A stretch of 64,000 bases of DNA from Polyangium jinanense. GTDB taxonomy: Bacteria; Myxococcota; Polyangia; Polyangiales; Polyangiaceae. Positions within the stretch are counted from its first letter, which is position 1. Every line of letters starts with the position of its first letter. The translations under genes and the position numbers were made by a program. Location: contig NZ_JAGTJJ010000001.1 in the NCBI RefSeq assembly GCF_028435365.1, positions 806,001-870,000 of the forward strand, given 5' to 3'. The notes under the pieces were generated by a model. It saw nothing but the letters and a program-made list of their open reading frames with translations, did not search any database and was not told the DNA's origin. Shown in pieces: positions 18,850 through 40,840 of this stretch.

Positions 18850-19020
18850 ATGAAGCTCGAGCTCGGGATTCCGGTCTGGTTGCTCTGCGGCATCCTCGGC
18901 GCCTGGATCGCCACGACGAAGGGCCGCGGCGGCTGCTTCTGGTTCCTCACGTGCGCGGTGCTCGGCCCGATTGGCCTCGTCTTCGCGGCTGTCGTTTCGA
19001 AGAAGTCGCAGAAGGACTGA
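18850..19020 (+). CDS. Small two-helix membrane protein
   Basis: 56 residues from the ATG at 18850 (MKLELGIPVWLLCGILGAW). Two hydrophobic segments flank a polar loop with TTKGRGGCFWF, and the second helix has the CAVLGPIGLVFAAVV pattern, ending SKKSQKD. This 'short loop, Gly-rich, GPIGL' layout is a widespread small inner-membrane protein type of unknown function. It is divergent from the hydrolase gene. Confidence 0.6.
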   Translation: MKLELGIPVWLLCGILGAWIATTKGRGGCFWFLTCAVLGPIGLVFAAVVSKKSQKD

Positions 19021-19432
19021 CGACGGACGCGTACGTCCCGATCGGCTCGTGTCGACGTGTCCGGCGCGTGTGCGCACGCTCGGGTCGTGGGCGAATAGAC
19101 GGGGGCAAAATCGACGCACGTCCGAACGCGCCGGACGAACGCGCTGCGAACCGCCGCAGACGGCGCCGATCGCCTCGGGGCAGACGTGGCAAAAAAGCGC
19201 GGCGATCCGTGGAGAACGAGCGCCACGTGGTCCGCGAATTCCCCGCATGCGCCGCCGCGCGTTCACGCAGGCTGGATGCACGGGGCCGGATCGGCCGACG
19301 GCCGCCGCCTTGCATTGCGAGGTGAGCGCGCGCCTCGACGACGAGCACCCGCTGCTGGTCGCAAGGCGTCGTCCCCTGCACGCGGCGCACGCCACGCGCA
19401 GGGCACCACGCGAGACAAGGAGAGGTATCTCG
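19021..19432. other. Intergenic region, nothing recognised
   Basis: 412 bases between the small membrane protein and the repeat protein. Open frames here are antisense or out-of-frame shadows. A good ribosome-binding site (AAGGAGAGG) for the downstream gene is at its right end. No hairpin terminator, promoter hexamers or RNA gene could be supported. Confidence 0.5.
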
Positions 19433-20377
19433 ATGAAGAAGTCGATCCAACTCCTCATGGCGGCGGCGATCGCCACGAGCGCACCCTTCCTGAGCATCGG
19501 CGACGCGTCGGCGGACGGCGGCTACGGCGGCTACGACTACAACCCGCGCTTCGGTCAGGTCGACGCCCGCTTCCTCGACAACGGCGACCTGCGGTTCGGC
19601 TTCGAGCAGATGAACATCCGCCGGCAGTTCGCCCGGTACTCGATCAACGCCGACCTCCAGGCGACGTACCGTTGCCAGGATCAGCGCGGAAACTTCGCCG
19701 GCGAGCCGATCGTCCTCCGCGATTCGTGGAACGACGCGAAGAGCTTCCAAGCGTCCCGGCAGGGCCGCGTCTACGGCGAGTTTCTCATGCCGCGGGATCG
19801 GTTCCGCGGCGCGGGCGCTTGCCGTGGCAGCTACCAACAGCCGGTGCTCATGCGGGTCACGATCGTGAACGTGCGCCTGCTCGACGAGACACACAACCTG
19901 CCGTACGCGCGCGAGCGCATCACGTGCGACGCGCGCGGCGCCTACGGCTACGACGACACGCAGTACGGCCCGGGCAAGGGCGACATCCAGTACGGCCCCG
20001 GCAAGGGCGACATCCAGTACGGCCCCGGCAAGGGCGACGAGTACTACGGCGACGAGGGCCAGTACGGCGGCGCCGACGATCAGTTCGACATCGGCCCGGG
20101 CGACACGCAGTACGGCGGCGACGTGCAGTACGGCCCCGGCAAGGGCGACGTGCAGTACGGCCCCGGCAAGGGCGACGTGCAGTACGGCCCCGGCAAGGGC
20201 GACGTGCAGTACGGCCCCGGCAAGGGCGATGTCCAGTACGGCCCTAGCAAGGGCGATGTCCAGTACGGCCCCAGCAAGGGCGACATCCAGTACAGCGGCG
20301 GCGACAGCCAGTACGCCCCGAGCAAGGGCGACGTTCAGTACAGCGGCGGCAAGGGCGACATCAACAAGGCCTACTGA
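19433..20377 (+). CDS. Secreted protein with QYGPGKGD tandem repeats
   Basis: 314 residues. ATG at 19433, preceded by AAGGAGAGG. A Sec signal peptide (KKSIQLLMAAAIATSAPFL, cleavage probably after ASA near residue 28) is followed by a domain of about 145 residues with three cysteines (TYRCQDQRG, GACRGSY, RITCDARG) and aromatic-rich strands. The C-terminal 135 residues consist of 9-residue units VQYGPGKGD (variants IQYGPGKGD, VQYGPSKGD, VQYSGGKGD), with one diverged insert at EYYGDEGQYGGADDQF. The repeat alternates Tyr/Gln, Gly/Pro and Lys/Asp, as in extended, adhesive or matrix-type proteins. No sorting signal; the function is unknown. It is followed by a strong terminator, so it is probably monocistronic. 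Confidence 0.85.
   Translation: MKKSIQLLMAAAIATSAPFLSIGDASADGGYGGYDYNPRFGQVDARFLDNGDLRFGFEQMNIRRQFARYSINADLQATYRCQDQRGNFAGEPIVLRDSWNDAKSFQASRQGRVYGEFLMPRDRFRGAGACRGSYQQPVLMRVTIVNVRLLDETHNLPYARERITCDARGAYGYDDTQYGPGKGDIQYGPGKGDIQYGPGKGDEYYGDEGQYGGADDQFDIGPGDTQYGGDVQYGPGKGDVQYGPGKGDVQYGPGKGDVQYGPGKGDVQYGPSKGDVQYGPSKGDIQYSGGDSQYAPSKGDVQYSGGKGDINKAY
19958..20359 (+). repeat. 27-bp in-frame tandem repeat
   Basis: Units of 27 bases, for example CAGTACGGCCCCGGCAAGGG plus CGACGTG, are repeated about 12 times; several consecutive copies from about 20126 are nearly identical. Such recent homogeneity implies expansion by slippage or unequal recombination. No spacers separate the units, so this is a coding repeat and not a CRISPR array. 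Confidence 0.85.
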
Positions 20378-20402: not shown

Positions 20403-20440
20403 CCGATCCCGGGCTTCGGTTCGCCCGGGATCGGTTTTTT
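20403..20440 (+). terminator. Rho-independent terminator of the repeat-protein gene
   Basis: CCGATCCCGGGC (20403-20414) pairs perfectly with 20423-20434 across an 8-base loop and is followed by six T (20435-20440) and a further TTT. It lies 26 bases after the stop at 20377. It is the clearest intrinsic terminator in the window. Confidence 0.92.
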
Positions 20441-20456: not shown

Positions 20457-21632
20457 TCACCACGAGCCGTCGCGGAGCGGCTCGGCGCCGAAGAGCTCGG
20501 CAAGCACCTTGCGGTACTGATCGGCGAGCCGCACGAGGTCGTGGAAGACCGCGGCGATGTCGTGCTCGCTCGCGAACGCGGAGACGGGCTCGGAGAAGGA
20601 GAGCACGACGACATCCCCCGCGAGCGAGAGGCGACACACGCCCGAGGTCTGATCGTTCGCCGTGAGCAGGAGCCGGTAGAACGGTTCGTGGTTCGCCGAA
20701 GGCACACGCACGAGCGGCACGCGCAAGATCACCTGCAAGCCCGCGCTGTCGAGGCGGATCGTCACCTCGGAAGGTGTCGCGTCTCCGCCGAGCGCGCGAT
20801 GATGAATGCGCCACGATCGCGGCCCGGTGCGTGCCTTGTTCGCGACGATCCCGAGCGCGGTGAGCGCGTCGCGCACCACGCGCTCGGCCCCGGCCGACTC
20901 GGTCTCGAACGCATGCGGCAAGAGGATCCCGCACGACTCGCAACGATCGTTGTCCGCGGAGAACGCCTCCGTGCAGCCAGGGCAGCGGTGAATGAGGGTG
21001 CGCTCGCCGAGCTCCGACGCAGGCACGTCGAGCGCGCGGAGGTCCCGCGCGAGGAGACCGACGGGCAGGATGCACCGAGCGCGATCGAGCGCATCCCGGC
21101 CGATGCGCCGCGCCGTGGTGATCACACCGATCACACGCCCGGCCGCATCGATCACGGGAGAGCCGCCGCGCCCGGCGCGCGCGCCGAGATCCGGATCGAG
21201 CGCCGCGAGCTCGCCGCCGCGCCCCTCGGCGCACACCACGGCCATCGCCGTCACGAAGGTATCGCCTGGCGCCGCGATCAGCGTGGTGACGGGCTCGCCG
21301 AGCCGCGGCAACGGATCCGCGCGCAAGGGCAGCGGCGCTGCGCCGATCGCTTCGAGTGGGAGCACGAACGCGAGATCCCGTTCCGCGTCCACGGCGACGA
21401 CGCGACCCGCCGCGCGCCTGCCTTCCTCGGTCGAGAGCACCACCTCGGACTGGAAGCCCACGGTGCGCCAGCTCGTCACGACCACGCCGTTGCCGAGCGC
21501 GACCCAGCCCGTGCCGCTCGACGTCCCCGACGTCACCGTCACGACCGATCGCCGCGCGACGCCGAGCACGCTCTCTCCCGGGTTGCCGTGTTGCATGAAA
21601 TCCGCGAGCGACGAGGCGATACGCGAGCTCAT
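20457..21632 (-). CDS. Trypsin-fold pseudoprotease with zinc ribbon and YbjN-like domain
   Basis: 391 residues. Residues about 20-200 follow the HtrA/trypsin plan (VVTVTSGTSSGTGWV, VVTSWRTV, DLAFV, GGSPVID, GVITTAR), but the catalytic His of TNAHVV is Arg56 and the Ser of GNSGGPV is replaced (RGGSPV, 155-160); only the Asp in ERDLAF (Asp86) is kept. A zinc ribbon follows (Cys217/220 and 231/234). The C-terminal region (about 240-385) has strand and helix texture like YbjN/type-III-chaperone-like domains (LQVILRVPLVRVP, LSLAGDVVVLSFSEPV). It is likely a binding protein. Its ATG overlaps the stop of the upstream gene (ATGA), so the two are coupled. Confidence 0.8.
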   Translation of the reverse strand: MSSRIASSLADFMQHGNPGESVLGVARRSVVTVTSGTSSGTGWVALGNGVVVTSWRTVGFQSEVVLSTEEGRRAAGRVVAVDAERDLAFVLPLEAIGAAPLPLRADPLPRLGEPVTTLIAAPGDTFVTAMAVVCAEGRGGELAALDPDLGARAGRGGSPVIDAAGRVIGVITTARRIGRDALDRARCILPVGLLARDLRALDVPASELGERTLIHRCPGCTEAFSADNDRCESCGILLPHAFETESAGAERVVRDALTALGIVANKARTGPRSWRIHHRALGGDATPSEVTIRLDSAGLQVILRVPLVRVPSANHEPFYRLLLTANDQTSGVCRLSLAGDVVVLSFSEPVSAFASEHDIAAVFHDLVRLADQYRKVLAELFGAEPLRDGSW

Positions 21633-23398
21633 CCGGACGCGATCCTCTTCAGCGCCGTCATCATCAGATCGAGCGCCGCCTGCTTGGGCACGTCGCGATG
21701 CGCGTGCGCCACGATGTCCTTCAAGCGTTGCGACGTCTGCTGTGGCAAACGCGTCCGTGTGAGCAACTCCGTCAGCGCGCCGAGCGCGAGGAAGTGGCGG
21801 AGCGTCGCGTCCTGCGGCGCGAGCTCGATCTCCTCGACGTACTTCGCCAGGTGCTCACGCGCCTGCGCCGCCGTCGCGAGCGGCTCGACGATGAACGCCC
21901 TCTCCTTCGGGAGAAGCGCGCGCGCCGCGACGATCCGCTCCATCGCGAGCAGCGCCGGCTCGGCCATCGGGATCGGCGACGACGGACGCTTGCCGCCGGG
22001 CGACGCGCTCGGCCAGATCGCACGCGTCACGCCCGACGCGTTCCGGTAGAGGTACGAGACCGCGTCGGGCACGTGCTCGCCGAACTCGTAGATCGCGCGA
22101 TACACCGCGGCGCGCACGAGCAGGAGCATCGTCGCGGGCCGCTCCTCGTAGCTCAGCGCCGTCGCGAGCGCCTGCGCCTGATGCAAGAGCTCGCAGAGTT
22201 TGTCCGCGGGCGTGAGCGCGCGGCGCGCCGCAGCATCGTCGAGGTCTGGCGAGCCGGGGCGCGTCGCGCCTTCGACCGCGGGCATCCCGGGCACCGTGCG
22301 TCGACGCGCGCCGGGCGCGGCGAACGGCATCGGCGTCGTGAGCGACGGGATCGCCCCGAGGCGCGCGGTCTCCGGCGGCGGCTCGCGGTCGGGCCCAGGC
22401 GGCGCAGCGAACGCGGACGTCTGCGGAACACCGAGCCGCGCCGTCTGCGGCACGTTCTCGGGAGGCGCGAGCACCGGCGGCACGCCGTCCTCGCCGCGCC
22501 ACGTATCCGAGAGGCGGAACGGCGCGAGCACCGGCGGCAGCTCCTCCTCCGCGACGGGAGGCCGCGACGCATCGTTCGCGAAGGCCGGCGCGAGGATCGG
22601 CGGCAGATCGTCATCCGGCGGCGTCGCGTTGTCCGCGGGCCTGAGCGTCGAGGGCGGCGGCGGCACGACTGATCGTCGCTGCGGCGCCGGCTGCAACGTC
22701 GAGAGCGTCCGCTTCCTCCCGAGCGACTCCCATCCACCGCCTCCGCGCGCATCTCCGTGTGCCGCGGTGCGCGCATCAAACGACGCCACGAAGATCTCCG
22801 CGTACCGCTCCGACGTCGCCATCATCTCGCGGATCACGTGCCGCACGAGCGGCGGCGACGCGGCGCCGAGCTGCGTGACGAAGCGCAGAAGGAGCAGATC
22901 GTCCCGCAGGCACACGCGTGACGTGATCGCCTCCTCGTCGCAGAGCTCGAGCGACAGCCGCATCGCGGGGACGCGCTGGCTGCGCGGCAGGCGCGCCACC
23001 GGCGACTCCACGATGAGGTGCATCGACTGCATGTCGAGCGACAGGAACACGCTCGACTCCTTGCCGATGAGCGCCCAGCCCGGCCCCTCGGGCAGGTTCA
23101 CCGCGCGCGCCGTCAGGTTCGACTCGGCAGAGGCGACGATGCCGAGCGCGCGCGCATACTCGCCACGCCGGAACGCTTCCGTCGCCCTCTCCAGCCCGGA
23201 AGGATCGAGCGACGCGTGCCCGCGCGGCACGAACCTCCGCATCGAATCTTCAAGCGCCAGCGGCGCGCGGTATTCCCCGCAGGCGTCGCAGCGTGGCCCG
23301 TGGACGGGCCATCCGCACACCGTGCAGAACTCCCGGGCCGTTCGGCTCGCGGCTCCCACCGCGCAGAGGATAAAGCGAACACGGCCCGCCGCGGGCAC
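21629..23398 (-). CDS. Zinc-ribbon / YbjN-like protein with proline-rich linker
   Basis: Up to 589 residues from a GTG at 23398; a GTG at 23359 is also possible. A zinc ribbon (CTVCGWPVHGPRCDACG, Cys25/28/37/40) is followed by a YbjN-like domain (about 95-205: FLSLDMQSMHLIVESPVARL, LLLLRFVTQLG). A linker of about 160 residues repeats the motif LPPxLAP (DLPPILAP, ELPPVLAP, GVPPVLAP) and QTARLG/ETARLG. The C-terminal 190 residues are helical (DKLCELLHQAQALATAL, LLLVRAAVYRAIYEF). No signal peptide or membrane segment, so cytoplasmic. Sharing a ribbon plus YbjN-like fold with the next, overlapping gene suggests that the two proteins act together (inference). Confidence 0.7.
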   Translation of the reverse strand: MPAAGRVRFILCAVGAASRTAREFCTVCGWPVHGPRCDACGEYRAPLALEDSMRRFVPRGHASLDPSGLERATEAFRRGEYARALGIVASAESNLTARAVNLPEGPGWALIGKESSVFLSLDMQSMHLIVESPVARLPRSQRVPAMRLSLELCDEEAITSRVCLRDDLLLLRFVTQLGAASPPLVRHVIREMMATSERYAEIFVASFDARTAAHGDARGGGGWESLGRKRTLSTLQPAPQRRSVVPPPPSTLRPADNATPPDDDLPPILAPAFANDASRPPVAEEELPPVLAPFRLSDTWRGEDGVPPVLAPPENVPQTARLGVPQTSAFAAPPGPDREPPPETARLGAIPSLTTPMPFAAPGARRRTVPGMPAVEGATRPGSPDLDDAAARRALTPADKLCELLHQAQALATALSYEERPATMLLLVRAAVYRAIYEFGEHVPDAVSYLYRNASGVTRAIWPSASPGGKRPSSPIPMAEPALLAMERIVAARALLPKERAFIVEPLATAAQAREHLAKYVEEIELAPQDATLRHFLALGALTELLTRTRLPQQTSQRLKDIVAHAHRDVPKQAALDLMMTALKRIASG

Positions 23399-23449
23399 AA
23401 TGTGCGTGCGCCGTGATCCGCGCCGCCTTTTCCGGCCCGTTCGCCCCGA

Positions 23450-25408
23450 TCAGATCAGGGGGTTCAGGTGCAGCGGGGTTCGCGTTTCTCGCAGGTCCAC
23501 CTGGATCCGGCGCACGAAATGGGCGGCGAAGGCGGCCCAGGTCACGAACGTGACCACTCCGCTCACGAGCCCGGCGTTCCGGCCGAAGCTGATCACCGTC
23601 GTCGCAAGGGCGCCGAGCAGAACGAACGCCGAGGCCACGATCGCGAGCGGCAAGAACCATCGCAGCGCGATCCGCGACCGCTCCTCCGCGCAGAGCCGCG
23701 GCAGCGCCCAGCGCAGCCACACCACCGTCAGCACGAGGCCCCAGCTCTTCAGCAAGAAGAGCAGCGCGCCCACGATCTTCAGCGCGCCCGCGCTCTCCTG
23801 CGTCGCGCCTGCCACGCCCGGGAGCTGCCAGCCGCCGAGGAAGATCGCGCTCGCGATCCCGCAGGCCACGAACACGTGCGCCCACTCCCCGAAGTAGAAC
23901 AGAAGCTGCCGCGCGCCGACCTTTGCGGGTGGCGCGAGCTCCTCCCCGCTCGCTTCCGCCTCCCGCAGCGCGCCCGGCGCACGCCCGTCGGCCGTGATCA
24001 TCGACGTCACGTACGCGAGGAACAGCACGAACGTCGCCGGGTTCCGGAACACGAACCAGTGCCAGGGCCACCCGCCCGCGTCGAGCGGCGATCCCCCCTG
24101 CCCACCTTGCGCCGCCACGATGTCCTCGAGCCGGAGCGACCCCGTGCTCGACACGACGCACACGATCGCCACCACGGCCGGTAGCTCCTGCAGAAGCACC
24201 CGCCCTGCGCCGCGCAGACCTCGCAGCACGGACCAGCGCTCCCCCGCGAGCGACCCACCCGTCACGAACCCGAGCCCGAGCAGCGCCACGAGCGCGAGCA
24301 GAAACAGCATCCCGACATCGAGGTCCGCGCCCACGAACCTTTGCGAGAACGGCATCACCACGAACGTCGCCGAGATCGCCGCGAACGCGAGCACCGGCGC
24401 GAGCTTCGACAGGATCGGATCCGCGTCCGGCGGCGCGATCGCCGAGGCCACCTCGCGATGCACCTCCGCGGCGAGCCGCGCGACCGGCGAGCGCACGAGC
24501 GTCTTCTTCCCGCTCCGCTGCCCTGCGAGTCGCGACGCCACGCGCCGCACGAGCCACGCCACGAGCGCGCCGAGCGGCGTCGCGAACACGAGCAGCGTCG
24601 CCGCGGACAAACCCAGCACGATCGCCGCGCCGAGCAGGTCCGAAGGCGCGCTCGCGTGGAACCCCTCGATCGAGATCGGGACGATCCGCGGCTCCTCCGC
24701 GCCGCGCTGCACGGCCACGAGTGGCGCGCGCTCCTCGCCGCTCGGAATCACGTCGGCCACGCTCGTCACCTTCACGCCCTCGAAGCTCGTGATCACGTCG
24801 CCGCCCTCGATCCGCGCCGCGGCTGCGGGGCTGTCCGGACGAACCGCCGCCACCACGAGCCCGTTCGACGTGGGTGCGTCCGGTGAAACCGTGATCCCCA
24901 GGAAGTCGAGCGCCCGCTGCCCGTCGCGCTCCCGTGCCAGCGCGATCGCGCGCCGCGGCGCCTTCGGCCGCACGTCGATCGTCACCTCCTTGACCGATCC
25001 CGTCACGGGCAGCGCGCCCTCGGCCTTCGTCTCCAGCGTGACCGTCACGTCGCCGTGGAACGTCGTGTGCGCCGACTCATCGCCTTGCCCGCAGAACCGC
25101 GCCACGAGCGCCTCGCTCACTGCGGCGCTCACCTTGTCGGTCGAGATCCTCGCCTTGTCGACGACGATCGTTTGCCCTTCGATCGGCGCTTCTCCGGGCC
25201 GCTTCAGCGTCCCGCGGAACGTGATCGTCGCCTCGCGCGCCTCTCCGGTCGGCAGGTTCGTCCCGAGCACCTCCAGCCGATCGCCCGACTCGAGCTCGCG
25301 CGGCGCCACGTCGACCACCCGCAGGAGATCGGGCGCGCTGTCGTTCACGTTACAGCCGCTCGCCAGGAGACAGGCGAGGGCGAGCGTGATCCTTCCATGA
25401 CCGGGCAT
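23450..25408 (-). CDS. Lipoprotein-PDZ domain fused to a NuoH-like (complex I subunit H) membrane domain
   Basis: 652 residues. ATG at 25408 begins a lipoprotein-type signal (RITLALACLLASGC, Cys19). Residues 30-150 form a beta-rich domain, and 165-250 read as a PDZ domain (LDFLGITVSPDAPTSNGLVV, SPAAAARIEGGDVITSFEG). From 257 the protein follows NuoH helix by helix: PDADPILSKLAPVLAF (compare the NuoH ANAD...LAPVLA), GADLDVGMLFLLAL, RGLRGAGRVLLQELP, DGRAPGALREAEA for NRAPFDLPEAEA, LLFYFGEWAHVFV, AIFLGGW, and LKSWGLVLTVVWLRWALPRL. NuoH forms part of the quinone site and proton path of complex I. No other nuo gene is in the window, so this may be a repurposed quinone-site subunit. It starts 8 bases after the ABC ATPase gene. 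Confidence 0.82.
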   Translation of the reverse strand: MPGHGRITLALACLLASGCNVNDSAPDLLRVVDVAPRELESGDRLEVLGTNLPTGEAREATITFRGTLKRPGEAPIEGQTIVVDKARISTDKVSAAVSEALVARFCGQGDESAHTTFHGDVTVTLETKAEGALPVTGSVKEVTIDVRPKAPRRAIALARERDGQRALDFLGITVSPDAPTSNGLVVAAVRPDSPAAAARIEGGDVITSFEGVKVTSVADVIPSGEERAPLVAVQRGAEEPRIVPISIEGFHASAPSDLLGAAIVLGLSAATLLVFATPLGALVAWLVRRVASRLAGQRSGKKTLVRSPVARLAAEVHREVASAIAPPDADPILSKLAPVLAFAAISATFVVMPFSQRFVGADLDVGMLFLLALVALLGLGFVTGGSLAGERWSVLRGLRGAGRVLLQELPAVVAIVCVVSSTGSLRLEDIVAAQGGQGGSPLDAGGWPWHWFVFRNPATFVLFLAYVTSMITADGRAPGALREAEASGEELAPPAKVGARQLLFYFGEWAHVFVACGIASAIFLGGWQLPGVAGATQESAGALKIVGALLFLLKSWGLVLTVVWLRWALPRLCAEERSRIALRWFLPLAIVASAFVLLGALATTVISFGRNAGLVSGVVTFVTWAAFAAHFVRRIQVDLRETRTPLHLNPLI

Positions 25409-25416
25409 GGCCCGGC

Positions 25417-26229
25417 TTATCCATCGCGCCGCGGCAAAGGGCCAAGTTGAGGGCGAACCGGCAGGAAATACCGGGCGTGGTCGAGCTCGTTCACCCCCAC
25501 GAAGAGCTCCACCTCGAACACCTCTTTGAGGCGCCGGTACGTCATCACCTCCTCGATCGACCCGTGCGCCACGAGCCTCCCCGCCTTCAAGAGCGCGATC
25601 CGATCCGCGTACTGCGCCGCCGCGTTCAGATCGTGCAGCACCATCAGGCACGCGAGCCCACGCTCCCGCACCTCGCGCCACACGAGCTCCGACAACGCGA
25701 GGAAGTGCCGCACATCGAGGTGCGCCGTCGCCTCGTCGAGCAAGAGCACCGGCGCCTCCTGCGCGAGCGCCCGCGCGATCGCGACCCTCTGCTGCTCGCC
25801 GCCCGACAGCTCTGACACGCGCCGATCCGCGAGCGTTTCGAGCTCGCACGCGGCGATCGCCCTCTCCACCGCCTCTTCATCGTGCTTCGACGCGCGCATC
25901 CATGCGCCCTGGTACGGCGCGCGCCCCATCATCACGATCTCGCGCACCGAAAAGCCCACCACCGGCTCCGACGACTGCGGCACGAGCGCGATCCTCTTCG
26001 CGATCTCCCTACGCTCCATGCGCGCGAGGGACTCGCCGAGCACCTGTACCTCGCCACGCTGGGGCGGGAGCGCGCCCGAGATCACCTTCACGAGCGTCGA
26101 CTTTCCGGCGCCGTTCGGCCCGAGGACCGCGCAAATCTCGCCTTTCCGCACGGAAAGGTCGATGTTCTCGAGCGCCACGCCTCCTGCCGCGTAGCGAACC
26201 GAGACCCCGGATAGTTCGATGGCATTCAT
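25417..26229 (-). CDS. ABC transporter ATPase, FecE/HmuV/BtuD type
   Basis: 270 residues. It has Walker A GPNGAGKST, Q-loop VPQSSEPVVGF, signature LSGGEQQRVAIARAL, Walker B VLLLDEATAHLD and an H-loop in VLHDLN. The overall pattern (ISGALPPQRGEV, MMGRAPYQGAW) is typical of the ATPases energising uptake of iron-siderophore, heme or cobalamin. No permease or binding protein is encoded nearby; instead the gene is followed after 8 bases by the lipoprotein-PDZ-NuoH hybrid. It may therefore serve a distant transporter or an unusual complex with its neighbours. It is divergent from phaR. Confidence 0.9.
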   Translation of the reverse strand: MNAIELSGVSVRYAAGGVALENIDLSVRKGEICAVLGPNGAGKSTLVKVISGALPPQRGEVQVLGESLARMERREIAKRIALVPQSSEPVVGFSVREIVMMGRAPYQGAWMRASKHDEEAVERAIAACELETLADRRVSELSGGEQQRVAIARALAQEAPVLLLDEATAHLDVRHFLALSELVWREVRERGLACLMVLHDLNAAAQYADRIALLKAGRLVAHGSIEEVMTYRRLKEVFEVELFVGVNELDHARYFLPVRPQLGPLPRRDG

Positions 26230-37451: not shown

Positions 37452-38120
37452 ATGGCGACGAGCGTGGAATTCGGAACGACGAGCGTCGCCAAGAAGGCGC
37501 TCATGGCGGTGAGCGGGATCGTGCTCACGGTGTACGTCGTCCTGCACCTCGCGGGCAACCTGCTTTATTTCGCCGGCCCCGAGGCGCTCGACGCGTATGG
37601 CGCTCTCCTCCACCAAAATGCCGCCCTGCTCTGGTCGGCCCGCGCCGTCCTCTTCGCGTCGTTCGGCGTACACGTGGTCGTCGCGCTCGACCTCTACATG
37701 CGCAAGCAGGTCGCGCGTCCGATCTCGTATGGCCGCTACGAACGCGCGGCGAGCAGCCTCGGCGCGCGCTCGATGCTCTGGACCGGCCTCGTCCTCCTCG
37801 GCTTCGTCGTCTATCACGTCCTCCATTTGACCCTCGGTCTCGCGCACCCCGCGTACGCCCCAGGGCGCGTGTATTCCAATGTCTCGGTCGCGTTCGCCTC
37901 GGTCGTGCCCACGGTGATTTACGTGGTCAGCATGATCGCGCTCGGCTTGCACGTCTCGCACGGCGTGCTCGCGATGACGCAATCGCTGGGGCTCACCCTG
38001 CATCGTGACCGGCTGCGCGCGCTCCGGCGGCTGTCCGTCGTCCTCGCGCTGATCGTCGCCCTGGGCCTCGCCGCCATTCCGATCACCGCGCTCGCGCTCT
38101 CTTTCACGAGGGGGCGGTAG
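37452..38120 (+). CDS. sdhC: Succinate dehydrogenase cytochrome b subunit
   Basis: 222 residues with five membrane helices, the single-subunit (type B, di-haem) anchor seen in Bacillus and Wolinella-like enzymes. Conserved pieces: KALMAVSGIVLTVYVVLHLAGN with an axial His, GVHVVVALDLY, RSMLWTGLVLLGFVVYHVLHL, and IALGLHVSHGVLAMTQSLGL. It anchors SdhAB and passes electrons to (mena)quinone. ATG after AGGGAGGAGGG. First of sdhCAB; the gap to sdhA is 9 bases. Confidence 0.95.
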   Translation: MATSVEFGTTSVAKKALMAVSGIVLTVYVVLHLAGNLLYFAGPEALDAYGALLHQNAALLWSARAVLFASFGVHVVVALDLYMRKQVARPISYGRYERAASSLGARSMLWTGLVLLGFVVYHVLHLTLGLAHPAYAPGRVYSNVSVAFASVVPTVIYVVSMIALGLHVSHGVLAMTQSLGLTLHRDRLRALRRLSVVLALIVALGLAAIPITALALSFTRGR

Positions 38121-38129
38121 GGGAAATTC

Positions 38130-40043
38130 ATGCACCTCGACGGCAAGATCCCCGGCGGTCCTCTTCCGCAGAAATGGGAGCGCCGCAAGCTCGAATACGC
38201 GCTCGTGAGCCCGGCGAACCGCCGCAAATACCGTGTGCTCGTCGTCGGCACGGGCCTCGCGGGCGCCTCGTGCGCCGCCACGCTCGGCGAGCTCGGCTAC
38301 CGCGTCGAATGCGTCTTCTTCCACGACAGCCCCCGCCGCGCGCACAGCATCGCGGCCCAAGGCGGTATCAATGCCGCGAAGAACTACCAGAACGACGGCG
38401 ACAGCGTGCAGCGCCTCTTCCAGGACACGATCAAGGGCGGCGATTACCGGGCCCGCGAGGGCAACGTCTACCGACTCGCCGAGGTGAGCCTGCGCATCAT
38501 CGATCAATGCGTCGCGCAGGGCGTCCCGTTCGCCCGTGAATACGGCGGAAAACTCGCGAACCGCTCCTTCGGCGGCGCCCAGGTCTCCCGCACGTTTTAT
38601 GCGCGCGGCCAGACGGGCCAGCAGCTCCTCCTCGGCGCCTACCAGGCCCTGCTCCGCCAGGTCCAGGCGGGCACGGTGCGCATCTCGCCGCGCACGGAGA
38701 TGCTCGACCTCGTCGTCGCCAACGGCAAAGCCCGCGGCATCGTCGCGCGTGACCTCGTGACCGGCGAGATCCGCACGTTCGTCGCCGACGCCGTCGTCCT
38801 CGCCACGGGCGGGTACGGCAATGCCTATTACCTCTCGACGTACGCGCGCAACTCGAATGCGACCGCGATCTGGCGCGCCCATCGCCGCGGCGCGTACTTC
38901 GCGAACCCCTGCTTCACGCAGATCCACCCCACGTGCATCCCCGTCAGCGGCGAGCACCAATCGAAGCTCACGCTCATGAGCGAATCGCTCCGCAACGACG
39001 GCCGCATCTGGGTCCCGCTCCGCGCCGGGGACGAACGAACGCCCGAGCAGATCCCCGAGGCCGAGCGCGACTATTACCTCGAGCGCCGCTACCCGAGTTA
39101 TGGAAACCTCACGCCGCGCGACGTCGCCTCCCGCGCGGCCAAGGCTGTTTGCGACGAGGGCCGCGGCGTCGGCAAGAGTGGCCTTGGCGTCTACCTCGAT
39201 TTCGCGGACGCCATTCGCCGCCTCGGCGCGAGCGTCATCGGCGAGCGGTATGGAAACCTCTTCGCCATGTACGCCGAAATCACCGGCGAGGACCCCTACC
39301 GCACCCCGATGCGCATCTACCCGGCCATTCATTACACGATGGGCGGCCTCTGGGTCGATTATGATCTCATGAGCACGATCGACGGCCTCTTCGTCATCGG
39401 CGAGGCGAACTTCTCCGACCACGGGGCAAACCGGCTCGGCGCGAGCGCGCTCATGCAGGGCCTCGCGGACGGCTATTTCATCGCGCCGCTCGCCGTCGGC
39501 AGCTACCTCGCGCGCGCGAAGCCGCCGTCCATCGACGATTCTCACCCCGCGTTCGGAGAGGCGCGCAAGGATACGGCATCCCGCATCGAGCGGCTGCTCT
39601 CGGTGCACGGCAAGCGCACCGCCGCCTCGTTCCACCGCGAGCTCGGCAAGCTGCTCTGGGACCAATGCGGCATGTCGCGGAACCGCGCAGGCCTCGAAAG
39701 CGCACTCGCCCAGATCCCCGAGATGCGCGAGAGGTTTTACCGGGAAATCCTCATCCCCGGCCAGGGCGAATCCTTGAACCGGGAGCTCGAAACCGCCGGC
39801 CGTGTCGCCGATTATTTCGAGCTCGCCGAGCTCATCTGCCGCGACGCCCTCCGCCGCGAGGAGTCCTGCGGCGGCCATTTCCGAGAGGAGTACCAGACGC
39901 CGGACGGCGAGGCCCTGCGCGACGACGAGCATTTCGGCTACGTCGCCGCATGGGAATGGCGCGGCGAGGGTGAACCCCACGTCCTGCACAAGGAGCCGCT
40001 CGTCTTCGAGGCGGCCCCGCCCATGCAAAGGAGCTACAAGTGA
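38130..40043 (+). CDS. sdhA: Succinate dehydrogenase / fumarate reductase flavoprotein subunit
   Basis: 637 residues. The FAD fold [14 protein letters not shown] (about 37-50) is followed by [13 protein letters not shown], where His72 is the covalent FAD attachment site. Further on are [48 protein letters not shown] and [27 protein letters not shown], typical of the 'non-classical' SdhA class that pairs with the five-helix SdhC. It oxidises succinate to fumarate on the cytoplasmic face. The stop overlaps the sdhB start (TGATG). Confidence 0.97.
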
Positions 40044-40840
40044 TGCGGATCGCGCTCGAGGTCTGGCGTCAGCGAAGCCCCGAGGAGCCCGGCCGGTTCG
40101 TCCGGTACGAGACCGCGGAGGCCTCGCCCGACATGTCGCTGCTCGAGCTGCTCGACGTCGTCAACGAGGGCCTCGTGCAAAACGGCGAGGAACCGATCGC
40201 ATTCGACAGCGATTGCCGCGAAGGCATTTGCGGCACCTGCGGATTCATGGTCAACGGCCTCGCGCACGGCCCGCTCCAGGGCGCGGCCGCGTGCCAGGTC
40301 TATCTCCGCAACTTCCGCGATGGAGAGACGCTCTGGATCGAGCCTTTCCGGGCGAAAGCATTTCCTCTCATCAAGGACCTCGTCATCAACCGCAGCGCGC
40401 TCGATCGAATCATCGCCGCGGGTGGTTACGTTACGGTGAACACGGGCAATGCGCCGGAGGCGAACACCTCGACGATCCCCAAGGACCTTGCCGAGCAAGC
40501 CATGGATGCCGCGGCGTGCATCGCGTGCGGCGCCTGCATCGCGGCTTGCCCGAATACCTCGGCCGCGCTCTTCACGGGCGCCAAGATCACGCACCTCGGA
40601 AAACTCCCGGAGGGCCAGCCCGAGCGAGGGCGGCGCGCGCTGCGCATGGTCCGGGCCGCGGCGGTCGAGGGATTCGGCCATTGCACATTCGCGGGTGAAT
40701 GCGAGACCGCATGCCCGAAAAGCATCCCCCTCCAGGTCATCACGCAAATGAACCACGACTACCTCGCGGCCCGGCTCCGCGGCGAGGGACGCGCGCAACC
40801 AAGGCACATCGAGCCCGGCACGCCGAAACGACGCCGCTGA
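40043..40840 (+). CDS. sdhB: Succinate dehydrogenase iron-sulfur subunit
   Basis: 265 residues. The [2Fe-2S] site is CREGICGTC (Cys58, 63, 66) with a fourth Cys near 84 (AAACQVY). The [4Fe-4S] and [3Fe-4S] ligands are in CIACGACIAACPNTSAAL and the later GECETACPKSIPLQV with an upstream FGHC. It carries electrons from SdhA flavin to SdhC haem. The ATG shares its A with the sdhA stop (TGATG), indicating coupled translation. The C-terminal tail is basic. Confidence 0.96.
   Translation: MRIALEVWRQRSPEEPGRFVRYETAEASPDMSLLELLDVVNEGLVQNGEEPIAFDSDCREGICGTCGFMVNGLAHGPLQGAAACQVYLRNFRDGETLWIEPFRAKAFPLIKDLVINRSALDRIIAAGGYVTVNTGNAPEANTSTIPKDLAEQAMDAAACIACGACIAACPNTSAALFTGAKITHLGKLPEGQPERGRRALRMVRAAAVEGFGHCTFAGECETACPKSIPLQVITQMNHDYLAARLRGEGRAQPRHIEPGTPKRRR

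Follow-up and report, generated by a model that had tools for sequence, protein, structure and literature searches.

What becomes of a complex I membrane subunit that carries a lipoprotein-PDZ ectodomain and is encoded apart from other nuo genes? The question is raised by a 64,000-nucleotide stretch of the Polyangium jinanense genome (contig NZ_JAGTJJ010000001.1 of assembly GCF_028435365.1, positions 806,001 to 870,000; hereafter the window), in which a minus-strand cluster of four genes codes for an ABC ATPase, a lipoprotein-PDZ-NuoH fusion, and two zinc-ribbon proteins. We call the fusion H2; D2, N2, L2, and M2 are the matching subunits of a second complex I. We moderately favor the reading that H2 is a decommissioned complex I subunit whose ectodomain would have been kept as a periplasmic scaffold.

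The H2 gene (23450..25408, minus strand, 652 aa) codes for two domains that exceed the Pfam cut-offs, both of 27 bits: PDZ_2 at residues 170-222 (34.8 bits, 2e-8) and NADHdh (146.8 bits, 1e-42). The PDZ-NuoH fusion named in the initial annotation is real. On the same strand, the protein has a lipobox-like L-A-S-G-C sequence ending at Cys19 (25352..25354), which, unlike a classic lipobox, has Ala at position -3. This is followed by an N-terminal ectodomain of residues 24-150 (24959..25339), mostly strands in the AlphaFold model (pLDDT mostly 73-91), a PDZ region of residues 151-250 (24659..24958), and a NuoH-derived membrane region of residues 256-640 (23489..24643). Cys19 as well as an HTTF motif were invariant in an alignment of 50 sequences (the query and 49 of 82 database matches). 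The H2 model as a whole had pLDDT 78 and pTM 0.76, with residues 473-494 below pLDDT 50, and structure searches assigned the ND1/NuoH fold to its membrane part. When the whole model was submitted to Foldseek and VIA, the matches listed were filled by ND1/NuoH chains and were uninformative on the ectodomain. We rejected a fusion created by a frame error since there is one open frame, it is ~99% conserved in G001, and the same fusion occurs in other orders; H2 of G001, the nearest genome, is 99% identical to H2 of the window, and database homologs at 90-95% identity carry the name Polyangium.

Two side observations concern the ectodomain. Proteins at L037, L038, L041, L042, and L043 matched H2 in the N-terminal ectodomain only, and the remainder was unrecognizable as NuoH by the searches used. 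By eye, the operonic H2 of L062 (5157-6400 region) and L047 (8445-9630 region) shows an EF-hand-like loop between the N-domain and the PDZ, where the ectodomain may bind calcium.

The origin of H2 is visible in other orders of the class, where the same fusion is found within nuo operons with the gene order A, C, D, H, I, J, K, L, M, N, as read within the limits of the contigs and gene calls. Because the fusion sits in nuo operons and its NuoH motifs are intact there, H2 is the H subunit of a second complex I. The window's H2 descended from such a subunit, and in the window's family it left the operon. For example, in G127, a genome with intact motifs, the second complex I is scattered over separate contigs as A2-B2-C2-D2 (L148), ATPase-H2 (L055), and L2-M2-N2 (L134). 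H2 as the only H of the cell was rejected since G001 has a second NuoH. This canonical NuoH has a long extra stretch within a 600-residue frame, and the genes for the canonical complex I of G001 lie on two contigs, L048 (G001:C11) and L135 (G001:C39). As a separate matter, the operons of L061, L063, L064, L065, L067, L068, and L070 showed no NuoB call between NuoC and, where it is present, NuoA; G127, by contrast, carries B2 within its A2-B2-C2-D2 group.

We aligned 98 proteins and scored 11 quinone-loop and carboxylate sites. All 11 were retained in the 13 operonic H2 rows (13/13). Among the 77 rows outside nuo operons, 22 kept all 11 sites ("intact" rows), and 55 were without at least one of N50, E71, and E228 ("decayed" rows). 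In the window's H2, 8/11 sites were changed, with Q, K, S, and A aligned to E. coli R46, N50, E71, and E228; the assignment for R46 is alignment-dependent, as an Arg adjoins it. Only the Arg of the TM5-6 loop, E202, and E204 were kept. The former first quinone loop (residues 286-330; 24419..24553, minus strand) has lost the GPNR and ADG-K-KED motifs, and the former TM5-6 loop (residues 468-504; 23897..24007, minus strand) has lost AE--R-PFD and TEYSG. According to the available part of PMC9696053, changes of E71 and E228 cause strong activity loss, the effect at R46 depends on the substitution, misfolding is suggested for changes of N50, and the loops with R46, N50, E71, and E228 are placed on the matrix side. 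Judged by these alignments, most of the predicted quinone-binding and proton-coupling residues have been lost in the window's lineage.

The database homologs, counted without the protease P0083, showed the same division. None of the three motifs was present in the 27 closest rows (query included), which were full length and 55-100% identical where aligned; of the remaining 55, 40 had three motifs, 3 had two, and 12 had none. With respect to the NCBIfam NuoH equivalog cut-off of 305, the window's H2 scored 115.4 bits and the operonic H2 of L061 scored 322.7. In a quick tree of the ectodomain, in which 36/84 forks were drawn open, 6 changes of motif state were needed, and 4 of these were forced by starred branches.

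The other subunits of the second complex were searched for directly. With an operonic-type NuoD as a query, strong D2 matches were obtained in 14/41 genomes, namely G030, the source of the query, and 13 others at 60-69% identity. The 39 genomes with a place in the H2 tree (G194 and G065 had none) comprised 14 with both D2 and the H2 motifs, 23 with neither, 2 with the motifs only, and 0 with D2 only. D2 was not found in the three Polyangium genomes searched, G001, G216, and G219. N2 was found in G230 (67%) and in G127, which supplied the query itself, and nothing above 41% was found in G216, G148, G116, and G212.

These results bear on the proposal that H2 still binds quinone as a functional membrane subunit of a complex that it forms with its neighbors for redox chemistry or energy conservation, close to the redox function with a quinone site that the initial annotation had entertained. 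The NADHdh match at 1e-42, the modeled membrane fold, and the kept E202, E204, and TM5-6 loop Arg agree with such a role. Given the eight changed sites, which include the N50, E71, and E228 positions, a score far under the NuoH cut-off, the absence of D2 from G001, G216, and G219, and the lack of any iron-sulphur or flavin protein among the four genes by Pfam, we find this role very improbable and the suggested redox function unsupported.

The L and M subunits had a different fate. Diverged M2 relatives, with the match reaching the N-terminal part, were present in at least 14 of the 24 D2-less family genomes, G224 and G226 aside. In G001 (1279 residues, L138) and G216 (1278 residues, L149), L2 and M2 form one ORF located far from H2; the G001 fusion passes TIGR01972 (NDH_I_M) with 306 bits vs a cut-off of 264. 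Compared with intact copies, the M part has the replacements Glu to Leu, Lys to Arg, Lys to Ser, and Glu to Pro, and the L part has Glu to Ala and Lys to Thr, at positions that we take to be the antiporter (pumping) residues. The insert of L (PEGA-like) and the N-terminal part of M (ASH-like), both labeled by eye, remain in the fusion. Downstream of the G001 fusion, at 10910-12484 of L138, there is a gene with HsdM domains (type I restriction-modification methylase).

Is the altered H2 still under selection? Across seven loci of the genus, the H2 frame was open in all 7, and omega was 0.19 for H2, 0.16 for the ATPase, and 0.16 and 0.18 for the other two genes, compared to 0.10-0.19 for four flanking genes at the same 7 loci. 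H2 is thus retained under purifying selection. Within H2, omega was lowest in the N-domain (0.15), intermediate in the membrane region (0.20) and the PDZ (0.27), and highest in the former first quinone loop (0.35). The last value, along with the marked divergence of the membrane part among the decayed rows, is what one would expect if H2 were a slowly decaying relic without function. We regard this as quite unlikely since the overall omega is 0.19, the frame is open at 7/7 genus loci, the 27 motif-less database rows are still full length, and Cys19 and HTTF are invariant.

The location of the constraint differed between intact and decayed rows. Mean identity in intact vs decayed rows was 0.84 vs 0.28 for the membrane region, 0.51 vs 0.37 for the N-domain, and 0.45 vs 0.31 for the PDZ. 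We also counted columns conserved at 70%, using 17/22 intact and 42/55 decayed rows after near copies, L036, L037, L038, and L041 were dropped. For the N-domain, the PDZ, and the membrane region, respectively, the counts were 47/127, 33/100, and 296/385 in the intact rows and 37/127, 14/100, and 26/385 in the decayed rows. In the decayed rows, the periplasmic-side loops keep 18/60 columns vs 2/123 in the cytoplasmic loops (p 3e-8, which serves only as a guide because the sets were drawn post hoc and the rows are related). The bias is reversed elsewhere: cytoplasmic vs periplasmic counts were 113/123 vs 45/60 in intact rows, 108/123 vs 30/60 in operonic rows, and 74/123 vs 18/60 in the canonical set (7 rows, without CAN_G001). 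The quinone loops were placed on the cytoplasmic side following the available parts of PMC9696053 and PMC13324432, and the sides of the remaining loops were assigned by alternation. With some loop sides so assigned, the decayed sequences place the constraint in the ectodomain and the putative periplasmic-side loops, and it is gone from the predicted cytoplasmic loops.

This pattern also affects the idea that H2 assists the canonical complex I in the same cell, as an accessory or assembly factor. Such a complex is available, as G001 has a canonical NuoH besides H2, and the similarity to the NuoH fold would suit the role. It is the cytoplasmic face, however, that decayed, and this is where NuoH contacts the peripheral arm; in addition, none of the loci read showed H2 linked to canonical nuo genes. 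We consider this idea unlikely.

The favored reading, a decommissioned subunit serving as a scaffold, is as follows. A second complex I, whose H carried the lipoprotein-PDZ ectodomain, was the source of H2. NuoD of this complex (and, in the one genome tested, NuoN) is not found in the window's lineage, and H2 has stayed. The helix bundle derived from NuoH would now only anchor and present the ectodomain, which could serve as a scaffold or binding platform in the periplasm. In Polyangium, H2 may act with the L2-M2 fusion, whose antiporter residues appear to be gone and whose extra-membrane parts remain. A broader proposal, which we put forward tentatively and hold to be somewhat doubtful, is that several lineages of the family independently shut off the second complex I and kept H (some also L2 and M2) as a periplasmic machine that neither performs redox chemistry nor pumps. 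The former decorations, i.e., the lipoprotein-PDZ ectodomain of H, the insert of L, and the N-terminal domain of M, would then have become the function.

Several points weigh against this reading. G224 and G226, both draft assemblies, have the motifs without D2, and the association of D2 with the motifs, once corrected for the tree, came to 4 pairs to 0 with 1 tie, which is too few to be significant (p 0.125). The loop sets were chosen after column conservation had been seen, and its omega of 0.20 gives no clear sign that the membrane region is relaxed within the genus. A role in peptide binding by the PDZ would be weak because conservation is lower in the PDZ region than in the N-domain and omega is higher (0.27 vs 0.15). 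The L2-M2 fusion is not a general partner of H2 because some genomes keep H2 without an M2 relic among the matches listed. Folded alone without an alignment, the ectodomain reached pLDDT 41.6.

How do the other genes of the cluster relate to H2? The ATPase (25417..26229, minus strand, 270 aa) is BtuD/FecE-like, matches ABC_tran at 6e-37 (Pfam), and its Walker A/B, signature, and H-loop residues were conserved in 30 aligned homologs. It stayed below every NCBIfam equivalog cut-off compared (BtuD, FecE, HmuV, corrinoid ATPase); the best match was the corrinoid ATPase (247.9 bits vs a cut-off of 537), and another match had 244 vs 261. The initial annotation had described an ATPase without a permease, and the genome counts do not support this. 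A FecCD permease was present in all 24 genomes searched (24/24). In the 12 genomes with an H2-linked ATPase that were searched for both, ATPases of this kind equaled FecCD permeases in number (12/12). Ten of these genomes had one ATPase, and two (G230 and G148) had two, the extra ATPase lying beside a permease. ATPase counts are those found at the cut-offs used, and larger genomes were assessed by their best candidates (e.g., 150 of 195 in G216). Of 10 genomes without an H2-linked ATPase, 3 had a related ATPase beside a permease, 3 had one elsewhere, and 4 had none at the cut-off. No ATPase match was found within ~5 kb of four other permease loci (L143-L146), and the three of these permeases that were scanned had BtuC as the best NCBIfam match, below the cut-off. 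The partner of the ATPase is probably a BtuC-like permease encoded at an unlinked locus. The arrangement resembles BtuCD-type (class II) ABC importers in combining an ATPase with a FecCD permease and in having the corrinoid ATPase and BtuC as the best NCBIfam matches; unlike in those systems, the genes here are unlinked and score below equivalog cut-offs.

The ATPase gene is directly upstream of H2 in 19/22 motif-intact rows and at 7/7 genus loci, an arrangement that could suggest that the ATPase drives H2 mechanically, with ATP hydrolysis replacing quinone chemistry at the decayed cytoplasmic face. We see hardly any chance of such coupling: the equal numbers of ATPases and FecCD permeases in 12/12 genomes speak against it, the linkage is equally strong where H2 keeps all complex I sites, and many decayed H2 genes have no adjoining ATPase (G062 and G112 keep the ATPase elsewhere).

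The two zinc-ribbon proteins, both on the minus strand, are a 589-aa protein (21629..23398, GTG start; weak DZR and YbjN) that contains a YbjN-like domain and is also conserved in its C-terminal part, and a 391-aa protein (20457..21632; Trypsin_2 at 3e-13 in Pfam) with a zinc ribbon and the same YbjN-like domain. The initial annotation had called both zinc-ribbon/YbjN-like. The Pfam evidence for this is below cut-offs: YbjN scored 13.7 and 13.6 bits vs a cut-off of 22, the zinc-ribbon matches were also below theirs, and the best of 11 family members of the 589-aa protein gave YbjN at E 0.0011. The relationship of the two proteins held, as they share a domain of about 100 residues, the last 100 residues of the 391-residue family aligning with residues 114-215 of the 589-residue protein (hhalign probability 97.6), and the four ribbon cysteines were kept in 18/18 readable rows of the 391-residue family. 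This shared domain is weakly similar to YbjN-type domains.

The 391-residue family had Trypsin_2 in 11/11 rows, as in HtrA/DegP-like trypsin domains; unlike these, it has a zinc ribbon in place of the PDZ and is without GxSGG or the His. In 18 readable rows, neither GxSGG nor an in-register His was found (0/18), Asp was kept, and in L085 and L086, a His lies one residue earlier than the register. The protein looks like a pseudoprotease, as had been proposed. The pair accompanies both intact and decayed H2; because it is found with both alike, we treat it as a separate two-gene unit, which would most simply be a chaperone-like or adaptor pair.

An ORF check of the window found the four genes where the initial annotation had placed them. 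The junctions are likewise as described: 8 bases between the ATPase and H2 genes, 51 bases between H2 and the 589-aa gene, and a 4-base ATGA overlap of the 589-aa and 391-aa genes. The gene order is conserved beyond this genome and recurs in other genera. The 589-residue protein was matched in 22/108 family genomes, 20 of them strongly and 2 weakly (G076, G205). Its gene adjoins H2 in 19 of the 20 strong cases (the exception is G179), and all four genes are in order in 16 of the 20; the ATPase is the sole absent gene at three loci, L104, L105, and L122. The overlap of the zinc-ribbon genes is seen at 17/19 loci with both called (window included); it was unseen in L074 and L122, where the ORF caller perhaps trimmed a start. 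Other genomes have NuoL-like and NuoM-like genes after H2 (e.g., L057, L058, L059, L034, L108, and L118), and in further genomes H2 is accompanied by the ATPase alone or stands by itself. The four-gene set recurs but is not obligatory. Since the ATPase, the zinc-ribbon pair, and H2 each occur without the others in relatives, a single four-gene pathway was rejected, and the proposed common function of all four genes has not been borne out.

Upstream of the cluster, in the opposite orientation, are a PhaR-like gene and a gene for an ECF sigma factor. In many family genomes, a conserved gene of ~180 residues (c31; L057 11525-12067 and homologs), with no Pfam match at 0.01, lies between PhaR and the ATPase or H2. 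A scan of the region for sigma-70-like promoters found none, which carries little meaning because the group is GC-rich. A terminator-like hairpin with a 12-pair stem (20403..20434, plus strand), detected by a consensus scan only, lies between the cluster and a convergent gene ending at 20377; such scans gave 4 terminator-like sites in the region vs 1.9 expected. The convergent gene (18971-20377, plus strand) ends in many short QYGPGKGD-like repeats and varies much among species of the genus, with 53-69% in most matches. Elsewhere in the window, at 37452-40840 (plus strand), three adjoining genes resemble succinate dehydrogenase C, A, and B by eye.

With respect to known systems, H2 is like NuoH/ND1 in the fold and sequence of its membrane region and in its ancestry via operonic relatives that pass the NuoH cut-off. 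Unlike NuoH/ND1, it has an N-terminal lipoprotein-PDZ ectodomain, 8/11 sites changed, and no adjoining nuo genes. The G001 L2-M2 fusion is like NuoL/NuoM in passing the NDH_I_M cut-off and unlike them in having two subunits in one frame, with charges replaced at what we presume to be pumping positions. Second complex I isozymes are known, for example, from Rhodobacter sphaeroides, which has two complex I operons according to the available part of PMC4859585. The second complex described here is likewise a second gene set besides the canonical one, traceable in genomes with D2; unlike such isozymes, it is spread over three or more loci in G127 and, as far as searched, is reduced to H2 and L2-M2 in the genus. 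The open-access papers found, PMC12361115 among them, describe neither a complex I with a lipoprotein-PDZ H nor its repeated decommissioning with H kept.

Database entries from Polyangium that carry the name NADH-quinone oxidoreductase subunit H probably do not represent this enzyme, which matters for annotation. If the reading is true, the family offers a natural experiment on a complex I membrane subunit without redox chemistry, and the ectodomain of the still intact isozyme (e.g., in Sorangium) would gain a testable role. The findings suggest that a component of an energy machine has been converted into a protein of the envelope.

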